In this document: piece after piece, positions 4,736 through 63,226 of the stretch | Position numbering within the stretch: the stretch's first letter is position 1 | Layout: each line of letters opens with the position of its first letter | Assembly: GCA_016930575.1 (NCBI GenBank) | Contig: JAFGGL010000028.1 | Span: 1 to 64,000, forward strand | DNA length: 64,000 nucleotides | DNA from: Clostridiales bacterium | Lineage (GTDB): Bacteria; Bacillota; Clostridia; Christensenellales; Aristaeellaceae | Reading direction: 5' to 3' | Made by a program: the position numbers and the translations under genes | Notes under the pieces: model-generated | What the model was told of the DNA's origin: nothing | The model's input: the letters and a program-made list of their open reading frames with translations, nothing else | Databases searched by the model: none

Positions 4736-4855
4736 ACCTACCCTGTCCGTTTTGTTGTCGCCTCGATCCCTACTGGTCGCGATGCTCTGCAAAACGTCCA
4801 ACTCCAGTTCGCTAGCCGCTACGCGGCTGTGCCCACCGGGCACACGCTCGCTTCC
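4736..4855 (+). repeat. Family R, module A copy (R0)
   Basis: About 120 bases sharing an order of elements with 20904-21020 and 39397-39512: TTGTC, stem a, TCTGYAAA, spacer, stem b (AGCCGC-TAC-GCGGCT, 4814-4828), stem c (GTGCCC-ACC-GGGCAC, 4829-4843), then ACGCTC. Stems b and c abut directly in all three copies, and their sequences differ by compensating changes. It fills the gap between the lipase-like gene and the acetyltransferase. Confidence 0.75.
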
Positions 4856-4857
4856 GT

Positions 4858-6435
4858 TCATCGACGGCTACCCTGTATCGCCCGGCGGCGCGGCGGCAGG
4901 CGGCGGGCGCGCGGCCTTTCGCGCCGCGTGTGCTGCGCGGTCCCGAACGCATAGTATCCCCTGGCATAAAACCGGTGCGGCTGGGATGCGCTGTCGTCCT
5001 GCCAGATAAAAGGCGTCAGCTCGCGGCTGTGTTCCCGGACGATGCGCAGGTACGCGCCGTTCATGGTCTTTGATCGGCAGAGGCTGTGCGGCGGGTAGAG
5101 CTGATCGTACAACGCGCCGAGCAAGCGCTTCAGCGGCATGTTTTTCACGATCGGGCGGAAACGCTCCATCAGGAACCGTATCGCCGCATCGTCCATCTCC
5201 CGCCCGCGTATCTCCGCATAGGACTTGCGCACGTAGGCGATCATGGTATTGAGCGTATCCTTGGCCTTTCTGCCCGCAAAGGAGAACACCTTCCCGATCG
5301 GCGCGACGGAGAAAAATCCCTCCGAGCCGCCGAAGATCGCCGAATCCGATTTTTCCTCGCAGATCACCGTAAACAGCGCCGTAAGCGCCGATAAAAACGA
5401 GAGCGTGTTGGTGATATGCAGCGTCAGCCGCTGCGCGTCTTTTCGCGCCGCGCGGTCGGCGGCCGTCCGGCTCCAGTCGTACGCCGCGTCCCGGAATTTC
5501 TCGTCCGGGGCGTATTGCAGGCAGAAGCCGAAGTGCTTGAGCGAGCCCATGCGCGGCACCAGATCGTCGGCGTTGAGCACGTGGTACAGGGGCCATTCCG
5601 CGCTGCCTTTCAAGGCGTTGTCCGCCGCCACGGTGGGCGAGGCGAACCCGCAGCCAAACACAAGTTTCTCATTCAACCCCAGCGCTTCCAGCAAATGATG
5701 GCAGTACACCTGCATCACCGCCGCGCCCTGGCTGTGCCCCGCCATCCACAGGGAAAAGCGGCTGTCCTCCCCGCGCATCTCGACCAATATGTCCCTAAGC
5801 GTCAGTTTCTCAATCCCCAGCGCTTCCGCCGTGTCGGGGAATTCGATCTCCGCTTCGTTCCGGATAAACCCCTGCGTAAGCTGGTAAAAGCCCTTGTGGA
5901 AACCTTCTTCCGTGCCGACACGGAAGTTGGAAAACCAGTCGTAAAAGCGCGTGCCGGTGCCCATAAACCCGATCGCGACCAAAAACCGCCTGTTTTCGGC
6001 CGGTTTGATCATCACCACGGCTTTGATGGTATCGCTCTCCGCGCGCTGCCGCAGCGCGCCCGTGACCTGCGAAAGCGGGTTGTGCTCCTTCATCGCCATG
6101 CGCGCCAGCGTCAGCCGCAGGCTGCCGACGGCCGATTGCACGCGGTCGGAGAAGCGTTCGTCCTCCCGCGCCCGCAGCCCCGTGGTCAGCTGGTTGTCCA
6201 CCTGCACGGAGAAATCCGTCCAGCCCGCGCGTATCCACGGCTCGATGTCCAGCGTGTACGCCATGCGCGAAAGCTCCAGCGACAGTTGAAGCCCGTCCTC
6301 CGTAAGCCTCCTGCGCTCCATCCCGAACGCGTCCGGCGCATAGGGTGCAAACAGGCCGTCCGTTCCGCCGAGAGAAACGCCGGTCAGTTCGCCCTGCACC
6401 AAGGTATTCGATTGGGTTTCATCCGATAGATTCAT
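4858..6435 (-). CDS. Class 3 lipase-like alpha/beta hydrolase
   Basis: A 525-residue protein with a lipase_3-type core. The nucleophile elbow is GHSQGAA (Ser at about 235). It is followed by 'FGCGFASPTVAADNA' and 'VLNADDLVPRMG' (about 287-297), which supplies the acid residue in this family; the catalytic His is not obvious. The first 140 residues are not recognised. There is no signal peptide, so it is probably cytoplasmic or peripheral. The start is ATG with a GGGGA ribosome site. The arginine-rich C-terminus runs up to the module A repeat at 4736-4855 and looks like an accidental extension. Substrate unknown: phospholipid or short ester. Confidence 0.75.
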   Translation of the reverse strand: MNLSDETQSNTLVQGELTGVSLGGTDGLFAPYAPDAFGMERRRLTEDGLQLSLELSRMAYTLDIEPWIRAGWTDFSVQVDNQLTTGLRAREDERFSDRVQSAVGSLRLTLARMAMKEHNPLSQVTGALRQRAESDTIKAVVMIKPAENRRFLVAIGFMGTGTRFYDWFSNFRVGTEEGFHKGFYQLTQGFIRNEAEIEFPDTAEALGIEKLTLRDILVEMRGEDSRFSLWMAGHSQGAAVMQVYCHHLLEALGLNEKLVFGCGFASPTVAADNALKGSAEWPLYHVLNADDLVPRMGSLKHFGFCLQYAPDEKFRDAAYDWSRTAADRAARKDAQRLTLHITNTLSFLSALTALFTVICEEKSDSAIFGGSEGFFSVAPIGKVFSFAGRKAKDTLNTMIAYVRKSYAEIRGREMDDAAIRFLMERFRPIVKNMPLKRLLGALYDQLYPPHSLCRSKTMNGAYLRIVREHSRELTPFIWQDDSASQPHRFYARGYYAFGTAQHTRRERPRARRLPPRRRAIQGSRR

Positions 6436-20894: not shown

Positions 20895-21053
20895 GGTTTT
20901 CTCTTACACCGTTTGGTTTATTGTCGCGTACCGCACTCCCGTTTGTACGCTCTGTAAACCTTCTCAACCTCAATTCACTTTGCGCCTGGCGCAAGCATCG
21001 TACAGGATGCACGCTCATTTCAGTTGCCTCTCTTTTTCCGAAAAGAGAAGTAA
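20895..21053 (+). repeat. Family P box-h6 unit split by a module A insertion
   Basis: GGTTTTCTCTT (20895-20905) and the remaining TTGCCTCTCTTTT..AAAAGAGAAG (21024-21050) together form the usual box plus h6, but are separated by about 118 bases of module A (R2). The second half overlaps the 3' end of the gene at 21015-21530. Confidence 0.65.
20904..21020 (+). repeat. Family R, module A copy (R2)
   Basis: TTGTC (20921-20925), stem a GCGTAC/GTACGC (20926-20950), TCTGTAAA, stem b TTGCGC-CTG-GCGCAA (20980-20994), stem c GCATC/GATGC (20995-21010), ACGCTC. The layout is the same as at 4736 and 39397, with entirely different but complementary stem sequences. Confidence 0.8.
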
Positions 21054-38469: not shown

Positions 38470-38486
38470 GCCGCGCGACAGGGTTC

Positions 38487-38622
38487 TTGGGGCTTCCGCC
38501 CCAAACCCCGATCAGGGGCGGTGCCCCTGAACCCCACTATAAATGCCGCGCGGAACGCGCGGCATTTATGGATGGGTCAAGGGCAATCGCCCTTGTCAGG
38601 GTCTTAGGGGTGAAACCCCTAA
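38487..38622 (-). repeat. Family P full copy: h1-h2-h3-h4-h5 (reverse orientation)
   Basis: Read on the minus strand: TTAGGGGTTTCACCCCTAA (h1), CAAGGGCGATTGCCCTTG (h2), a 31-base h3 with AAATGCCGCGCG/CGCGCGGCATTT arms (38539-38569), CAGGGGCACCGCCCCTG (h4), TTGGGGCGGAAGCCCCAA (h5). It has the same order as the copies at 52146 and 58452. Confidence 0.8.
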
Positions 38623-38699
38623 AACCTCCCGTCGTTCCTTTTTCTCCCATCCTGTGCTACAATGGGTTTCGTACACGGTTTTGGGAGGAGGGCCGAGTT

Positions 38700-39332
38700 G
38701 TGGCCGCATTATTTTTCACCGCGCTGGCCGTAGGCTTTTCGGGCGCGATGATGCCCGGCTCGCTTTTGACCTACACCATCCGCCAATCGCTCAAGGAAGG
38801 CCCCAGGGTGGGGTTCGTCGTCATCCTCGGGCACGCTATGCTCGAGCTCGTGCTGATCGCCGGCATCTTTCTGGGGCTGGACATGGTGCTGAAGTCCGAC
38901 GCCGCGCAGATCACCATCGGCATACTCGGCGGCCTGCTGCTGTGCTACATCGGCGCGGATATGATCCTGAAGGCCGCGCGCCGCAAAGTGAGCATCTCCA
39001 CGGAGGCGAAAACCCGCAATTCCGAGCACATGGTGCTTTCCGGCGCGGTATTGAGCCTCGCCAACCCGTACTTCCTGCTGTGGTGGGCGGTCATCGGCCT
39101 GGGTTTCCTCACCGAAGCCTACCGCGATTTTGCCGTCTGGGGCGTCGTGGTGTTTTTCCTCGGCCATATCCTGGCGGATTTCTCCTGGTACGGGCTGATC
39201 TCCTTTTTAGTCGGCACGACGCGCAGGTTCATCAAGGACAAACCCTACCGCATCATCATCATGATCCTCGGCGGGCTGCTGATCTTCTTCGGCGCGCGTT
39301 TTTTGATCGGCGCTATCGGTGCATTGCTTTAA
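38700..39332 (+). CDS. LysE-family exporter
   Basis: A 210-residue, six-helix inner-membrane protein of the LysE/RhtB superfamily, which exports amino acids or related small molecules. Family features are 'GFSGAMMPGSLLTYTIRQSLKEG' in two parts (about 12-34), 'GHAMLELVLIAG', and 'SLANPYFLLWWAVIG' (about 118-132). The GTG at 38700 follows GGGAGGAGGG; the upstream open frame overlaps a family P repeat and GH28 and is rejected. The TAA stop overlaps the first bases of the terminal repeat of the family R element at 39331. Substrate unknown. Confidence 0.88.
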   Translation: MAALFFTALAVGFSGAMMPGSLLTYTIRQSLKEGPRVGFVVILGHAMLELVLIAGIFLGLDMVLKSDAAQITIGILGGLLLCYIGADMILKAARRKVSISTEAKTRNSEHMVLSGAVLSLANPYFLLWWAVIGLGFLTEAYRDFAVWGVVVFFLGHILADFSWYGLISFLVGTTRRFIKDKPYRIIIMILGGLLIFFGARFLIGAIGALL

Positions 39333-39396
39333 GGTAAACGCTGACTAAATCCCTCGCACGCTGCTATGCTTTATTTCCGCCATCTTGCGCCTGCGA

Positions 39397-39512
39397 TACC
39401 CACTCGCTTTTATTGTCGCGGATATCGCTGCCGCTTATCCGCTCTGTAAAAGCTCCCACCTTCGGGTCGCTCACGGCTGTGCCGTGGTGTCCACTAGACA
39501 CACGCTTCCCTA
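39397..39512 (+). repeat. Family R, module A within R1
   Basis: TTGTC (39413-39417), stem a GCGGATA/TATCCGC (39418-39442), TCTGTAAA, stem b CACGGC-TGT-GCCGTG (39472-39486), stem c GTGTC/GACAC (39487-39501), ACGCTT. Compare 4736 and 20904. Confidence 0.8.
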
Positions 39513-39520
39513 CGGTGCCC

Positions 39521-39635
39521 GACGTAGCGCTGCTACTACTGGCTACGGCCTCGCCCTGCACTTCGTTTGCGCGAGGCTACGCGCTTCATTACCTTCGGTA
39601 ATCTCGGGCGCTAGTCGGCCAAACGGCCTCCCTTA
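39521..39635 (+). repeat. Family R, module B within R1
   Basis: Stem d GTAGC-GCT-GCTAC (39524-39536), stem e GCCTCGC/GCGAGGC (39548-39577) around GCACTTCG, stem f ATTACC-TTC-GGTAAT (39588-39602), stem g GGCC-AAAC-GGCC (39617-39628), then TCCCTTA. Stems f and g covary with the other copies. Confidence 0.75.
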
Positions 39636-39750
39636 CGGATTTCCCAAACCCAACCTGACGAAAATCCAACACGGCATCGCACAAGCTCTTAATCATCGTT
39701 TGCCTTGTGTTTACTTTGCTCGCTAAATAAAATTCCGAAAGGAAAATCCG

Positions 39751-40477: not shown

Positions 40478-40877
40478 AGAAATGTTTCGGGACGTGCCCG
40501 ACAGCGACGAGAAGCAAAGCCTGCTGGGCGAGATGATCGCCGACGCCGAGGAAAAGGCCGCCGACCTGATGGCCGACGGCAAGGATGAGGAAGACGCCGT
40601 CAACAAAGCGCTGGTGGAACTGGGCGACCTTTCCGAAATCAAGTTGAACCTGATGGGTGTCTCGCCCAGGCGTGCGGGCGGCGGGCAGCGCAGGCGCCGC
40701 AACAACCTGCTCTATTCGGTGATCGGCAGCCTGCTGATCATCGCGCTGATGGTGTTCATCAACCTGTATTATTCGCCCGATACCATCTGGTTTGTGTACC
40801 CGATGTTCGGCGTCATCTGGTGGCCGCTGTCGGTGTTCCTGCACTACCTCAACCACAGGGACGGTGACGGCAAATGA
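40455..40877 (+). CDS. HAAS-domain (DUF1700/permease prefix) protein with one WWP two-helix repeat
   Basis: A 140-residue protein: N-terminal helical HAAS domain (about 1-65; 'IRQHVEEMFRDVPDSDEKQSL', split, and 'LMADGKDEEDAVNKALVELGD'), a basic linker, then two membrane helices with the motif 'FVYPMFGVIWWPLSVFLHYL' (about 113-132). The start GTG at 40455 lies 9 bases after GGAGG; an in-frame ATG at 40446 abuts that site and is unlikely. It overlaps padR by 23 bases and the next gene by four (ATGA). HAAS proteins pair with PadR regulators and are linked to envelope stress; the mechanism here is unknown. Confidence 0.82.
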   Translation: MKIRQHVEEMFRDVPDSDEKQSLLGEMIADAEEKAADLMADGKDEEDAVNKALVELGDLSEIKLNLMGVSPRRAGGGQRRRRNNLLYSVIGSLLIIALMVFINLYYSPDTIWFVYPMFGVIWWPLSVFLHYLNHRDGDGK

Positions 40878-41359
40878 AAAAATCCCTGCAGACGGCCGTG
40901 TACGTCTCCGGCGGGATTATCGTTTCGCTGATCCTGTTAAACCGCCTCACGTCGTCCTACCCCTGGTGCATATACCCGATTTTCGGCATCCTCTGGTGGC
41001 CGTTGAGCGCATACTTTTTGGGCCGCAGGGAGCCGCTGCACTATGCCGTATACGGCACGGCGCTTTTGTACGCGCTGTTCCTGCTGATCTATCTGTTCTC
41101 AAGCCCCGGCGCGCACCCGTGGTTCCTCTACCCGATGCTGGGCGTCTTCTGGTGGCCGCTGTCGGTGTGGGGGTCGATGGTCGGCGCGAAGCGCTTTTCC
41201 GTCACGGCGACGCTGTATATCGCCCTGATGCTGCTGGTCATCAACCTGCTTTCCTCGCCGGGCTTCTGGTGGTGGCTTTGCCCCGCCGTACCCGTGCTGT
41301 GGTGGCCAGCGGCCGTATACCTGAAGGACAGAAACCGCAAGGAGAGTGAAACGCAATGA
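40874..41359 (+). CDS. Membrane protein with three tandem WWP two-helix repeats
   Basis: A 161-residue protein consisting almost entirely of three repeats of about 50 residues. The repeat ends are 'PWCIYPIFGILWWPLSAYF' (about 34-52), 'PWFLYPMLGVFWWPLSVW' and 'WWWLCPAVPVLWWPAAVYL'. Each unit has two hydrophobic helices joined by a Ser-Pro-Gly/Ala-His-Pro-Trp turn, like the single unit in the upstream HAAS protein. Its ATG overlaps that gene's stop and its stop overlaps the next start (both ATGA). It looks like internal triplication of the 2TM unit. Function unknown. Confidence 0.8.
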   Translation: MKKSLQTAVYVSGGIIVSLILLNRLTSSYPWCIYPIFGILWWPLSAYFLGRREPLHYAVYGTALLYALFLLIYLFSSPGAHPWFLYPMLGVFWWPLSVWGSMVGAKRFSVTATLYIALMLLVINLLSSPGFWWWLCPAVPVLWWPAAVYLKDRNRKESETQ

Positions 41360-42780
41360 ATAAACAACTTCGCGCCGCGCTGGTATACTCCGCCATGATC
41401 ATCGCGACGGTCGTGACCGTCAACCTGCTGACGTCGCCCGGATTTCTGTGGTTTGTTTTCCCGGTTTTCGGGCTGCTCTGGTGGCCGCTGAGCGTGTACT
41501 TCGCGGGGAAAAAGAAGCCGTTCGCTTATGCCGTGTGCGGTGCGGCGCTGCTGTGCGGCCTTTTCCTGGTCACGTACCTGCTTACCAGCCCCGGCGCGCA
41601 TCCGTGGTTCATCTACCCGATGCTGGGCGTCGTATGGTGGCCACTGAGCGTATACTTCACAGGAAAAAAGAAGCCTCTGCCCTTCGCGCTGCTGGGTTTT
41701 GCCGTCATTGCGGCGTTGTTTGTCCTCCTTTGGGTGCTCACGGGCACAGGCACGCATCCGTGGTTCGTCTACCCCATCCTCGGCGTGTTCTGGTGGCCGC
41801 TGTCGGTGTGGGGCGCCAAAAAAGGCGCACGCGCCTTTGCCGTAGCGGGCGGCCTGTACACGATCCTCATGCTGCTCGCCGTCAACCTCGTCACATCGCC
41901 CGCGTTCTGGTGGTGGGTATACCCGGCGTTCTTTGCGCTGTGGTGGCCCGCGTCGGTGCTTCTGGGCAAACGGGCCAATACGCTCGCGTTTGCCCTGGGC
42001 TCCTCCGTCGCGGCCTCGCTGTTCCTTATCGTGATGTATTTTATCCAGACGCCGAACGCCGAGCCCTGGTACCTGTACGCGCTGCTACCGCTGTTCTGGT
42101 GGCCGGTCTGCACGCTGTTACGCAAGCGCGTGAGCGAACTGCGGATCCTTCTCATCAGCGTGATCGCCTTCACGGCGTACTACACAGGACTGATCGCGCT
42201 GCTGCACGGCATATCTTCCCTGCTGTCGGTCTTCCTGCTGATCGCCGGGGTGTGGCTCGTGTACGCCATGAGCGTGAGCAAGCACCGCAACGCCTTCGGC
42301 TTCGCCGCGATCAACGCGGCGCTGCTCATCGCCTATTTCCTCCTCGTGCATACCCTGGTCACGCCGGACGCGCACCCGTGGTACTGGTACACCTTCTTCC
42401 CGCTTGTCTGGTGGCCGGTCACCGCGGAGCTTAAGGAAAAAGCAATGAAGCCCGTTCCCGTAGCCGTTGGCGCGGTCCTGGGCCTCGCGTGCTACGGCGC
42501 GCTGAACTGGTTCGTCTCCCCCACAACGCCGTGGATTTTGTTCCTCTCCTACCCCGTCGCCGCAGCCGTGATCGGCAGCGTCTGCCGCGCGCGGAAAGCC
42601 TGGGTGGCGCTCTCCGTCTGGATGACGCTTGCCGGCATCGCGTACTTCGCATCTATCAACCTCGTATACTCCCCGCACACCATCTGGGCTGTCTACCCCG
42701 CCTTCGGCCTCCTCTGGTGGCCCCTGAGCATGCTGCTCTTCGGCCGCAAGGTGAAGGACGGGGACGAAGAGACAGCGTAG
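41356..42780 (+). CDS. Membrane protein with about nine tandem WWP two-helix repeats
   Basis: A 474-residue polytopic protein made of about nine units of 45-52 residues, so about 18 helices. Seven units keep the WWP core, for example 'WFVFPVFGLLWWPLSVYF', 'PWFIYPMLGVVWWPLSVYF', 'PWFVYPILGVFWWPLSVW', 'PWYWYTFFPLVWWPVTAEL' and the last 'WAVYPAFGLLWWPLSMLLF'; units six and eight are degenerate. Short basic loops (KKK, KRA, RKRV) follow each WWP, consistent with positive-inside topology. It is the last gene of the padR operon, with a family P hairpin right after the stop. It resembles no transporter family that I know; scaffold or lipid-interacting roles are guesses. Confidence 0.8.
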   Translation: MNKQLRAALVYSAMIIATVVTVNLLTSPGFLWFVFPVFGLLWWPLSVYFAGKKKPFAYAVCGAALLCGLFLVTYLLTSPGAHPWFIYPMLGVVWWPLSVYFTGKKKPLPFALLGFAVIAALFVLLWVLTGTGTHPWFVYPILGVFWWPLSVWGAKKGARAFAVAGGLYTILMLLAVNLVTSPAFWWWVYPAFFALWWPASVLLGKRANTLAFALGSSVAASLFLIVMYFIQTPNAEPWYLYALLPLFWWPVCTLLRKRVSELRILLISVIAFTAYYTGLIALLHGISSLLSVFLLIAGVWLVYAMSVSKHRNAFGFAAINAALLIAYFLLVHTLVTPDAHPWYWYTFFPLVWWPVTAELKEKAMKPVPVAVGAVLGLACYGALNWFVSPTTPWILFLSYPVAAAVIGSVCRARKAWVALSVWMTLAGIAYFASINLVYSPHTIWAVYPAFGLLWWPLSMLLFGRKVKDGDEETA

Positions 42781-46107: not shown

Positions 46108-46175
46108 ACGTTTCCTTTCCGTTTCACCTTATTACAACATAATATCATATCAGCCAATACGCAATCCTTTACCCG

Positions 46176-46250
46176 TTGACCGCGTGAAACGCGGTCAATA
46201 CCGGGGTTCAGGGGCACTGCCCCTGATCGGGGTATGGGGCGGAAGCCCCA
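46176..46250 (+). repeat. Family P partial copy: h3-h4-h5, overlapping the end of dxr
   Basis: TTGACCGCG/CGCGGTCAA (46176-46198), CAGGGGCACTGCCCCTG (46209-46225), TGGGGCGGAAGCCCCA (46235-46250). The dxr stop (46195-46197) lies in h3, and h4 and h5 encode its last residues. Confidence 0.8.
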
Positions 46251-47391
46251 TGAGTTCCCTCGCCGTCTCCCGCGCGCGGCGGTCGGCGGCGAGGACTTGG
46301 GAAAGCGTATCGGCGGGCAGATGGCCGACGCGCCCGATGGTTTCTTCCACGGTGCTGAACAATTTCCCGACGGTCAGTTTTCCGGCAAGCAGCCGCCCGA
46401 CGGCTTCCTCGTTGGCAGCGTTGAGCACGCAGCAGGCCGCGCCGCCCGCGCGGATGCACTCCGCCGCCATACGCAGCGACGGAAAACGCGTTTCGTCGGG
46501 GCGCTCAAACGTCAATTCCTTCAGCTTGAACAAATCCATCGGCTCCCCGCCAGTCGGAAGCCTTTCGGGGTAGGCCATGGCGTAGAGTATGGGCAGGCGC
46601 ATGTCCGGCGTGCCGAGCTGCGCGATCACCGCGCCGTCTGAAAACTCCACGGCGCTGTGCACCGCCGACTGCGGATGGACGAGCACCTGGATCTGCTCCA
46701 CGTCCGCGCCGAACAGATAGTGCGCCTCGATCATCTCCAGCGCTTTGTTGAAAAGCGTCGCGGAATCCACCGTGATCTTATTTCCCATGTTCCAGGTCGG
46801 ATGCCTGAGCGCCTCTTTCGCCGTCGCCGCGTCGATTTTATCCTTACTCCACACGCGGAACGGCCCGCCCGAGCAGGTGAGCAGGATGCGCCGGAACGCG
46901 TTCCCCGCCGCGCCCTGCAGGCACTGGAAGATTGCGGAATGCTCGCTGTCGATGGGAAGCAGGCTGTGTTCGCCCGCCGATTTGGCGGCCTTCATCACCA
47001 GTCCGCCGCCCGCGACCAGGGTTTCCTTGTTGGCCAAAAGCACGCGTTTTCCGCAGGAAAGCGCGTGCAGCACGGCCGGCAGCCCGCACATACCGACCAC
47101 CGCGACCAGCGCTTCGTCGCAGCCGTCCATGCCCGCGGCCTCGGTCAGCGCCTCGTCCCCGAACACCCAGCGGCAATCCCGCAGGTCTTTCGGGATATCG
47201 TCTATCGAAAACCGCGTGTCCGTCAGCCCCGCCATCTGCGGGCGGAACGCGCGCACCTGCGCAAACAGCGTTTCGCTGCTGCTCCTGGCGACCAACGCGG
47301 TGGCCCGAAAACGATCGCTGTGCAACGCGATCAGCTCCAGCGCCTGCGTGCCGATGGAGCCCGTGGATCCGAGTACCGCCAGCCGTTTCAC
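46195..47391 (-). CDS. dxr: 1-deoxy-D-xylulose-5-phosphate reductoisomerase
   Basis: Second step of the MEP isoprenoid pathway (DXP to MEP, NADPH-dependent). The 398-residue protein has the N-terminal Rossmann motif 'LGSTGSIGTQAL', 'ANKETLVAGG', metal and substrate motifs 'LPIDSEHSAIFQCL' and 'LTCSGGPF', and 'NMGNKITVDSATLFNKALEMIEA' in two parts. The GTG at 47391 is chosen because AAAGGAGG lies just upstream; the longer ATG frame begins inside a family P repeat. The last 17 residues (GLPPHTPIRGSAPEPRY) are encoded by another family P repeat and are not part of the family fold. A TATAAT hexamer at 47472-47477 may drive it. Confidence 0.95.
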   Translation of the reverse strand: MKRLAVLGSTGSIGTQALELIALHSDRFRATALVARSSSETLFAQVRAFRPQMAGLTDTRFSIDDIPKDLRDCRWVFGDEALTEAAGMDGCDEALVAVVGMCGLPAVLHALSCGKRVLLANKETLVAGGGLVMKAAKSAGEHSLLPIDSEHSAIFQCLQGAAGNAFRRILLTCSGGPFRVWSKDKIDAATAKEALRHPTWNMGNKITVDSATLFNKALEMIEAHYLFGADVEQIQVLVHPQSAVHSAVEFSDGAVIAQLGTPDMRLPILYAMAYPERLPTGGEPMDLFKLKELTFERPDETRFPSLRMAAECIRAGGAACCVLNAANEEAVGRLLAGKLTVGKLFSTVEETIGRVGHLPADTLSQVLAADRRARETARELMGLPPHTPIRGSAPEPRY

Positions 47392-47406
47392 CGCGTTGCC
47401 TCCTTT

Positions 47407-47456
47407 CAGGGGCAGTGCCCCTGAACCCCACTTTTGGCCGCGCATTGCGCGGCCAA
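47407..47456 (-). repeat. Family P partial copy: h3-h4 upstream of dxr (reverse orientation)
   Basis: On the minus strand TTGGCCGCGC/GCGCGGCCAA (47434-47456) and CAGGGGCACTGCCCCTG (47407-47423). It lies 16 bases before the dxr GTG, so h4 abuts the ribosome-binding site. Confidence 0.75.
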
Positions 47457-47499
47457 TGGATGATATAATGAATTATACACTATTCTCGACGTTCACGCA

Positions 47500-47750
47500 G
47501 GCAAACGACGAATGAAACCCTGTGCAATGCCGAGGCGATTATTCGACAGGTTGAATTTTCTACCCTTTAAGGGAGGGCGCAAGCCCGACTAGCCACCGAG
47601 GTTTCCGAAGGAAACGAATGGCGTAGCCTCGCGCACGCGAAGTGCGGGCGAGGCCGCAAAAGTAGTAGCAGCGCTACGTCGAGGCCTCCGGGAGCGCAAA
47701 ATAATGGAAATACGCCCGGCAGCGTGCGGGGGCTTTATTCAGCGTTTGCC
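47500..47750 (-). mobile_element. MITE-like family R element with module B (R3)
   Basis: A 251-base element with terminal inverted repeats: GGCAAACGACGAATGAAA at the left and, read inward from the right, GGCAAACGCTGAATAAA. Module B on the minus strand contains stem d (47665-47677), stem e (47626-47654), stem f GTTTCC-TTC-GGAAAC (47601-47615) and stem g GGGC/GCCC (47575-47586). Module A is absent. Its right end lies 8 bases from the rapZ stop, as the R1 end abuts the stop of the LysE-type gene. Confidence 0.7.
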
Positions 47751-52145: not shown

Positions 52146-52283
52146 TTGGGGCTATGCGCCCCAAACCCCCGGTTAAGGGCTATCAGCCCTTAACAATCCC
52201 CCCTTTTGACCGCGCATTGCGCGGTCAATTGTGGGGTTCAGGGGCACTGCCCCTGATCAGGGTCATAGGGATAAAATCCCTAT
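52146..52283 (+). repeat. Family P full copy: h1-h2-h3-h4-h5, between purL and purB
   Basis: TTGGGGCTATGCGCCCCAA (52146-52164), TTAAGGGC/GCCCTTAA (52173-52193), TTGACCGCGC/GCGCGGTCAA (52206-52228), CAGGGGCACTGCCCCTG (52239-52255), ATAGGGATAAAATCCCTAT (52265-52283). It begins 17 bases upstream of the purB start and ends 4 bases from the purL stop. Confidence 0.85.
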
Positions 52284-58451: not shown

Positions 58452-58590
58452 TGGGAGCTATGCGCTCCCAGGCCCTCCACCCAAGGGCCATCGGCCCTTA
58501 GGCATCCCTCTATTGACCGCGCAATGCGCGGTCAAAGGGGGGTTCAGGGGCACTGCCCCTGATCGTGGCTTTTAGGGGTGAAACCCCTAA
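58452..58590 (+). repeat. Family P full copy: h1-h2-h3-h4-h5, inside the purine operon
   Basis: TGGGAGCTATGCGCTCCCA (58452-58470), AAGGGCCATCGGCCCTT (58483-58499), TTGACCGCGC/GCGCGGTCAA (58513-58535), CAGGGGCACTGCCCCTG (58545-58561), TTAGGGGTGAAACCCCTAA (58572-58590). The stop codon of the IMP cyclohydrolase gene (58587-58589) lies in the last hairpin. Confidence 0.85.
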
Positions 58591-63100: not shown

Positions 63101-63226
63101 CGGCCTCGAACCGCACTTCGTTTGTCCGAGGCTACGCGCTTCATTGCCTCGCATCCCTGCGTCTCTCCTGCTTTGGAATAAAGGCCTCGAGGCAATTTCG
63201 GGCGCCAGTCAGGCTTTCGCCTTCCC
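63101..63226 (+). repeat. Family R, truncated module B (R4)
   Basis: Stem e GCCTCG/CGAGGC (63103-63132) around GCACTTCG, stem f ATTGCCTC/GAGGCAAT (63143-63196) enclosing an extra 38 bases, stem g AGGC-TTTC-GCCT (63211-63222), TCCCT. Stem d and the terminal inverted repeats are missing. It lies between purE and purC. Confidence 0.65.

Follow-up and report, generated by a model that had tools for sequence, protein, structure and literature searches.

The 64,000-nucleotide stretch of Clostridiales DNA analysed here (the window) contains three copies of a large repeat family, called element A below, which has about 120 letters per copy and no earlier listing, and which keeps one two-part fold while its letters change. 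Its copies occupy intergenic sites in a single family of gut Clostridia. We consider it probable, at roughly 55%, that element A is mobile DNA that does not move autonomously and that a putative enzyme recognizes its folded single strand. The family is new in sequence, in architecture (a hairpin plus a three-way junction) and in host clade; it is best read as a dispersed structured repeat of the REP/ERIC/BOX/YPAL kind (PMC2229807, PMC3049150, PMC8266576, PMC3733652).

The initial annotation described a three-stem element, and its stems a, b and c were all found in the three window copies (4739-4864, 20905-21031 and 39397-39522, all on the forward strand). The list of stems was, however, incomplete: alignment of nine copies revealed two more helices, z and d, giving five in total (z, a, b, c and d). 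Element A consists of hairpin I, in which the outer helix z encloses stem a across the internal loop TTGTC/TCTG, followed by stem II, in which helix d closes a three-way junction made by stems b and c. Of the blocks first taken as fixed and unpaired, TCTG is indeed unpaired, but the YAAA of TCTGYAAA pairs with the TTTR preceding TTGTC and thereby forms helix z. This helix occurs as GTTTTG/CAAAAC, GTTTTA/TAAAAC, GGTTTA/TAAACC and GCTTTTA/TAAAAGC, with TTTC/GAAA or TTTG/CAAA in other copies, while helix d ranges from CACC..GGG / CCC..GGTG to CAAC..AGT / GCT..GTT. Pairing across the helices was 92-96%. The copies are approximately 118-126 nt in length, with a GC content mostly of 0.46-0.72.

Copy 1, which extends to about 4739-4864 once helices z and d are added to the quoted stems, covers model positions 1-126 (covariance model 110.9 bits, E 4.7e-25); its helices lie at 4748-4754/4790-4796 (z), 4760-4765/4780-4785 (a, with a single C.T mismatch), 4799-4802+4806-4808 / 4850-4852+4856-4859 (d), 4814-4819/4823-4828 (b) and 4829-4833/4839-4843 (c). 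In copy 2 (119.5 bits, E 3.1e-27), the corresponding positions are 20914-20920/20955-20961 (z), 20926-20931/20945-20950 (a), 20965-20968+20972-20974 / 21017-21019+21023-21026 (d), 20980-20985/20989-20994 (b) and 20995-20999/21006-21010 (c). Copy 3 gave the top score genome-wide (141.8 bits, E 6.6e-33), with helices at 39406-39412/39447-39453 (z), 39418-39424/39436-39442 (a), 39457-39460+39464-39466 / 39508-39510+39514-39517 (d), 39472-39477/39481-39486 (b) and 39487-39491/39497-39501 (c). Folding z-scores were -5.3 to -5.4 (RNA) and -4.9 to -5.5 (DNA) for copy 3, -2.0 to -2.8 for copy 2, and -1.1 to -2.1 for copy 1, the weakest of the three; RNA and DNA folding energies did not discriminate between the RNA and DNA readings of the element.

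The fold is supported by covariation. The seed pattern TTGTCGCN{8,30}GCTCTGYAAA contained the flanks of stem a only, with stems b, c and d lying outside it, and detected ten copies in the source genome, while a reversed control pattern detected none. In nine seed copies, in which stems b, c and d are free of model-selection bias, the structure was 92% paired, with two-sided change in 20 of 32 pairs. Stems b, c and d covaried in these copies, and the covariation score was reached by none of 500 shuffles and abolished by column slides of 1-3. Twenty-copy alignments of each half showed two-sided change in 12 of 15 and 13 of 18 pairs. We then used an R-scape-like test on 127 copies (<93% alike) in a MAFFT alignment made without structure fitting, comparing G-test scores with 100 simulations on the tree that kept the per-branch substitutions and per-column rates. 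The covariation proposed in the initial annotation proved strong: 14 column pairs were significant at E<=0.05, of which 12 were predicted stem pairs. These come from all five helices, and one of them closes the stem-a loop; the remaining two significant pairs were neighbours inside stem b. Most of the 127 copies had been found with the structure-containing model, and weakly paired copies are therefore under-represented among them.

The occurrence of further copies beyond the first three had been set beforehand as a test, and the covariance model search returned 40 copies in the source genome (2.35 Mb), in both orientations, as well as others in relatives. Three genomes of the same genus carried 25-48 copies and two incomplete ones carried none, while one genome from another genus of the same family carried 54. 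Matches were obtained in 18 of 120 genomes sampled from the family, but not in any of 24 genomes representing other families of the order. A phylum-wide pattern scan matched the source genome alone among 398, and the stem II pattern, scanned across GTDB genomes, was confined to about eight assemblies of gut or rumen Clostridia, including Candidatus Limiplasma. The same two-part architecture was retained across genera, and in the source genome the halves were always together, with no split copies of hairpin I or stem II. One relative contains a tandem array with a period of 118 nt, and inverted pairs about 75 nt apart occur in the source genome. Many copies are located at the ends of contigs, which fits a repeat that breaks draft assemblies.

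Searches of plasmid and phage records gave no match to element A, nor did Rfam for the whole window at the gathering threshold; the copy 3 region gave no relevant Rfam match up to E=5, and no tRNA or tmRNA identity was detected. No account of such a repeat in Christensenellales was found in the open-access literature. A loose pattern picked out 120 stretches in a viral collection, and the 80 checked with the model included just one relative (L130; viral contig IMGVR_UViG_3300026522_001175, 1195-1308). L130 has a near-identical hairpin I and a different second half, and lies between direct repeats at least 26 nt long (GGTCATCTCTATATCAGATTAGTAAT).

Next, we analysed the genomic context. None of 124 distinct copies was contained in a called ORF, all being intergenic, and copies with both neighbours called lay between 26 convergent, 32 unidirectional and three divergent gene pairs, the divergent arrangement being avoided. 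In the source genome, most copies begin 15-65 nt downstream of the preceding stop codon, and the orientation was that of the gene before them in 21 cases and opposite in eight. Co-oriented copies are thus probably included in the 3' untranslated regions of transcripts, as an RNA reading would likewise predict. The dinucleotide CC directly followed element A in 156 of 181 copies. Inverted arms flanked the copies of the source genome more often than expected, with a stem score of >=7 in 23%, compared with 2% of swapped-flank controls.

Many copies lie inside other palindromic repeats, namely, module B hairpins and repeat E, and both empty and filled forms of these hosts were found. The filled module B hairpins are of the type CAGGGGCAGTGCCCCTG, and the same type occurs empty five times in the window: in the palindrome at 38482-38626 (inverted repeat I3, with the hairpin CAGGGGCGGTGCCCCTG at 38513-38529) and at 46209, 47407, 52239 and 58545. 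Module B itself (38482-38626, 46173-46253, 47406-47460, 52198-52263 and 58505-58571) forms G+C-rich hairpin chains that are repeated genome-wide, centre on a GGCCGCGCATTGCGCGGCC-type palindrome and are probably bidirectional terminators. Repeat E is present on the forward strand as a left part (39332-39396) and a right part (39638-39705), with element A copy 3 and repeat G between them; intact copies elsewhere in the genome have the two parts about 30 nt apart, indicating that copy 3 interrupts repeat E. This repeat is approximately 165 nt long with the ends GGTAAACGMTGA..TCATCGTTTACC, and has many intact genomic copies (L251, L256, L265 and L268). Repeat G (CGGCCTCGCCCTGCACTTCGTTTGCGCGAGGCTACGCGC..; 39540-39635, forward strand) is a dispersed repeat lying beside element A and repeat E, with other copies at 47568-47648 (inverted), 63101-63149 and on other contigs.

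Direct repeats were seen at some copies. A 9-nt direct repeat, CTACCCTGT, stands on either side of copy 1, and in at least three copies direct repeats of 20, 17 and 13 nt enclose element A together with a 5' extension of 30-34 nt. At two such loci, L043 (G000:C4:27790-27917) and L072 (G005:C105:7031-7157), the repeats enclose the element plus 30-33 nt; the 20-nt repeat of L043 equals the 5' end of a tRNA-Arg-like gene, and that of L072 is 17 nt long. Most copies have no long direct repeats, and those in host repeats resemble clean insertions. The 5' boundary is approximate, and a duplication length of 0, 2 or more bp is compatible with the copies.

To distinguish RNA from DNA function, we compared wobble pairs with mismatches, as a functional RNA tolerates G-U on the RNA strand but not A-C. 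The variable pairs of element A contained 101 G-U and 111 A-C (ratio 0.91), and the opposite strand, with its own predicted fold, contained 106 and 82 (ratio 1.29); an earlier count on 72 copies was concordant (36 and 50). In contrast, RNase P from 30 related genomes, given the same treatment, showed 151 and 27 on the RNA strand (ratio 5.59). The G-U share of variable-pair cells was likewise about 2.5% for element A and 9.5% for RNase P. This lack of a G-U excess over A-C, unlike in RNase P, argues against RNA function. On the bottom strand, stem b has a GNA triloop in 82 of 127 copies and stem a has a C(GNNA)G loop in 75 of 127, a motif found in 21% of shuffled windows. Helix d has a GNA/GNA-type internal loop with conserved A (97%) and G (94%), and hairpin I has CAGA/GACAA as its internal loop. 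Loops of the GNA, C(GNNA)G and GNA/GNA types are stable in single-stranded DNA, although the same purine motifs would also be stable in RNA. The initial annotation had left the choice between RNA and single-stranded DNA structure; structure is upheld, the RNA option is weakened by the wobble counts, and single-stranded DNA is favoured by these counts together with the purine-type fixed loops on the opposite strand. Repeats such as element A are prone to false calls of novel structured RNAs, and the G-U versus A-C count with an in-clade RNA control offers a simple RNA-or-DNA test for covariation in repeats.

An RNA role nevertheless has evidence on its side. Element A could act as a small RNA or as a structured element of 3' untranslated regions, stabilizing, destabilizing or terminating mRNAs, and could have been spread by duplication and retained by selection for its RNA fold. 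The position and orientation of copies behind genes and the strong covariation agree with such a role, and for ERIC, BOX and REP, action as RNA once inserted has been reported or proposed (PMC2229807, PMC3049150, PMC3733652). We regard it as unlikely, given the wobble counts, the occurrence in both orientations and as tandem and inverted copies, and the lack of a relative in Rfam. Alternatively, the fold may need no function at all if mutation itself restores pairing, either by copying the opposite arm to mend mismatches in palindromic DNA at replication (quasipalindrome correction or template switching) or by conversion between copies. Changes were nearly always two-sided and Watson-Crick, with rare and symmetric intermediates, and the nearby repeats B and E are likewise palindromic, which speaks for such a process. 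On the other hand, helix d is maintained despite arms about 40 nt apart with two stems between them, the unpaired loops and junctions are the most conserved parts, and the architecture is constant across genera; hence, we consider this origin of the pairing quite improbable. Of the selection on structure claimed initially, the retained pairing is upheld; selection is one candidate cause of it, since hairpin-templated mutation or gene conversion could likewise restore the stems.

Target-primed reverse transcription of an RNA form would account for direct repeats of variable length, such as those of 20, 17 and 13 nt around the extended unit in three copies and the similar one in viral contig L130. 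These repeats are absent from most copies, though, no RVT_1 protein was found in G018 despite its many copies, and the sole RVT_1 match of the source genome is located among phage-like genes. We therefore think this route very unlikely to explain the family. A reverse transcriptase-like ORF with YMDD was noted at 2417-3211 of L363 (G000:C22), in a setting of phage-like genes.

Returning to a mobile DNA repeat as the preferred reading, we count in its favour the copy number in both orientations, covariation in all helices, the wobble counts, the loops, the constant joining of hairpin I and stem II in the source genome, the tandem arrays and the genomic context. Such an element, which has neither a gene nor terminal inverted repeats, would fold into hairpin I and stem II when single-stranded, and a putative trans-acting enzyme would recognize the shape and the fixed loop sequences of the folded strand, inserting new copies 5' of CC(C), preferably into the arms or loops that other palindromic repeats form behind genes. 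If shape is what counts, a stem could vary freely provided that a change in one arm is matched in the other. What we infer from these patterns is the enzyme, the single-stranded intermediate and the bottom strand as the active one. Counted against mobility are the co-orientation with the preceding gene, the 13-20 nt direct repeats around the extended unit, which do not fit clean insertion, and the absence of Y1 transposases (PF01797) from several copy-rich draft genomes (G000, the source genome; G003; G005; and G018). The presence of neither a Y1 transposase nor a reverse transcriptase tracks copy number, and both were rejected as partners. Tentatively, two-domain three-way-junction DNA elements of this kind may be spread by a shape-reading recombinase that is not of Y1, integron or MITE type and that lands in the hairpins of other repeats.

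Among known systems, YPAL (RU-2) of Yersinia, of about 168 bp (PMC2229807), is the nearest by behaviour, as judged from its published description and not by sequence. YPAL and element A are both intergenic and not A+T-rich, with internal rather than terminal inverted repeats, no TA termini, variable-length direct repeats around some copies, and targets at or beside dyad symmetry, which for element A is seen in the flanking arms exceeding controls and the filled and empty hosts. The two differ in that the YPAL clade is unrelated, and element A has two domains with a three-way junction, shows cross-species covariation and is mostly cleanly inserted 5' of CC(C). REP sequences are 20-40 nt long, with GTAG or CGTC at the foot, and are served by TnpA-REP (RAYT) transposases (PMC8266576, PMC3733652). 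Like REP/BIME, element A is palindromic DNA dispersed downstream of genes, in the intervals of convergent or unidirectional gene pairs, with frequent inverted pairs and a fixed unpaired motif beside a stem; the folded single strand as substrate is a REP/BIME feature (PMC8266576, PMC3733652) that we propose for element A. In contrast, the unit is 118-126 nt long with two domains, neither tetranucleotide occurs among its conserved blocks, and the source and other copy-rich genomes gave no Y1 transposase, so that size, foot sequence and transposase all speak against REP/RAYT membership.

A non-autonomous derivative of IS200/IS605 would have subterminal hairpins, no terminal inverted repeats, and insertion next to a fixed short motif without duplication; element A has hairpins near both ends and CC after most copies, but some copies have long direct repeats. 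An autonomous relative with tnpA and matching ends was not found, the source genome containing no split halves, no autonomous copy with a gene between the halves and no Y1 transposase. A classical MITE, which would be A+T-rich with terminal inverted repeats and a target site duplication, was rejected because the ends are not inverted repeats, the GC content is as given above and duplications occur in few copies. ERIC (127 bp, enterobacteria; PMC2229807) resembles element A in size, intergenic location, high pairing and, in some cases, transcription with neighbouring genes, but is set apart by terminal inverted repeats, TA termini and target duplication. BOX of pneumococcus is assembled from boxA, boxB and boxC (PMC3049150). 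It is similarly modular, strongly folded and present in many copies with a variable number of tandem units, whereas element A repeats a single 118-nt unit. Integron attC sites are single-stranded DNA sites of conserved structure and variable sequence. Element A resembles them in conserved structure and variable sequence, and in the single-stranded form that we propose for it, but has no gene cassettes between tandem units, a two-domain fold and no attC core motifs that we could see. With element A, a repeat family specific to one clade comes to light in which evolution has preserved structure unusually clearly, and its well over 100 natural variants make DNA shape recognition testable.

Apart from these repeats, the window contains a coding region (40788-42733) in which a degenerate unit of about 156 nt is repeated; its 49-nt core (TGGTTTGTGTACCCGATGTTCGG..TGGTGGCCGCTGTCGGTGT) is present eight times, which suggests that the protein has a series of W-rich segments.
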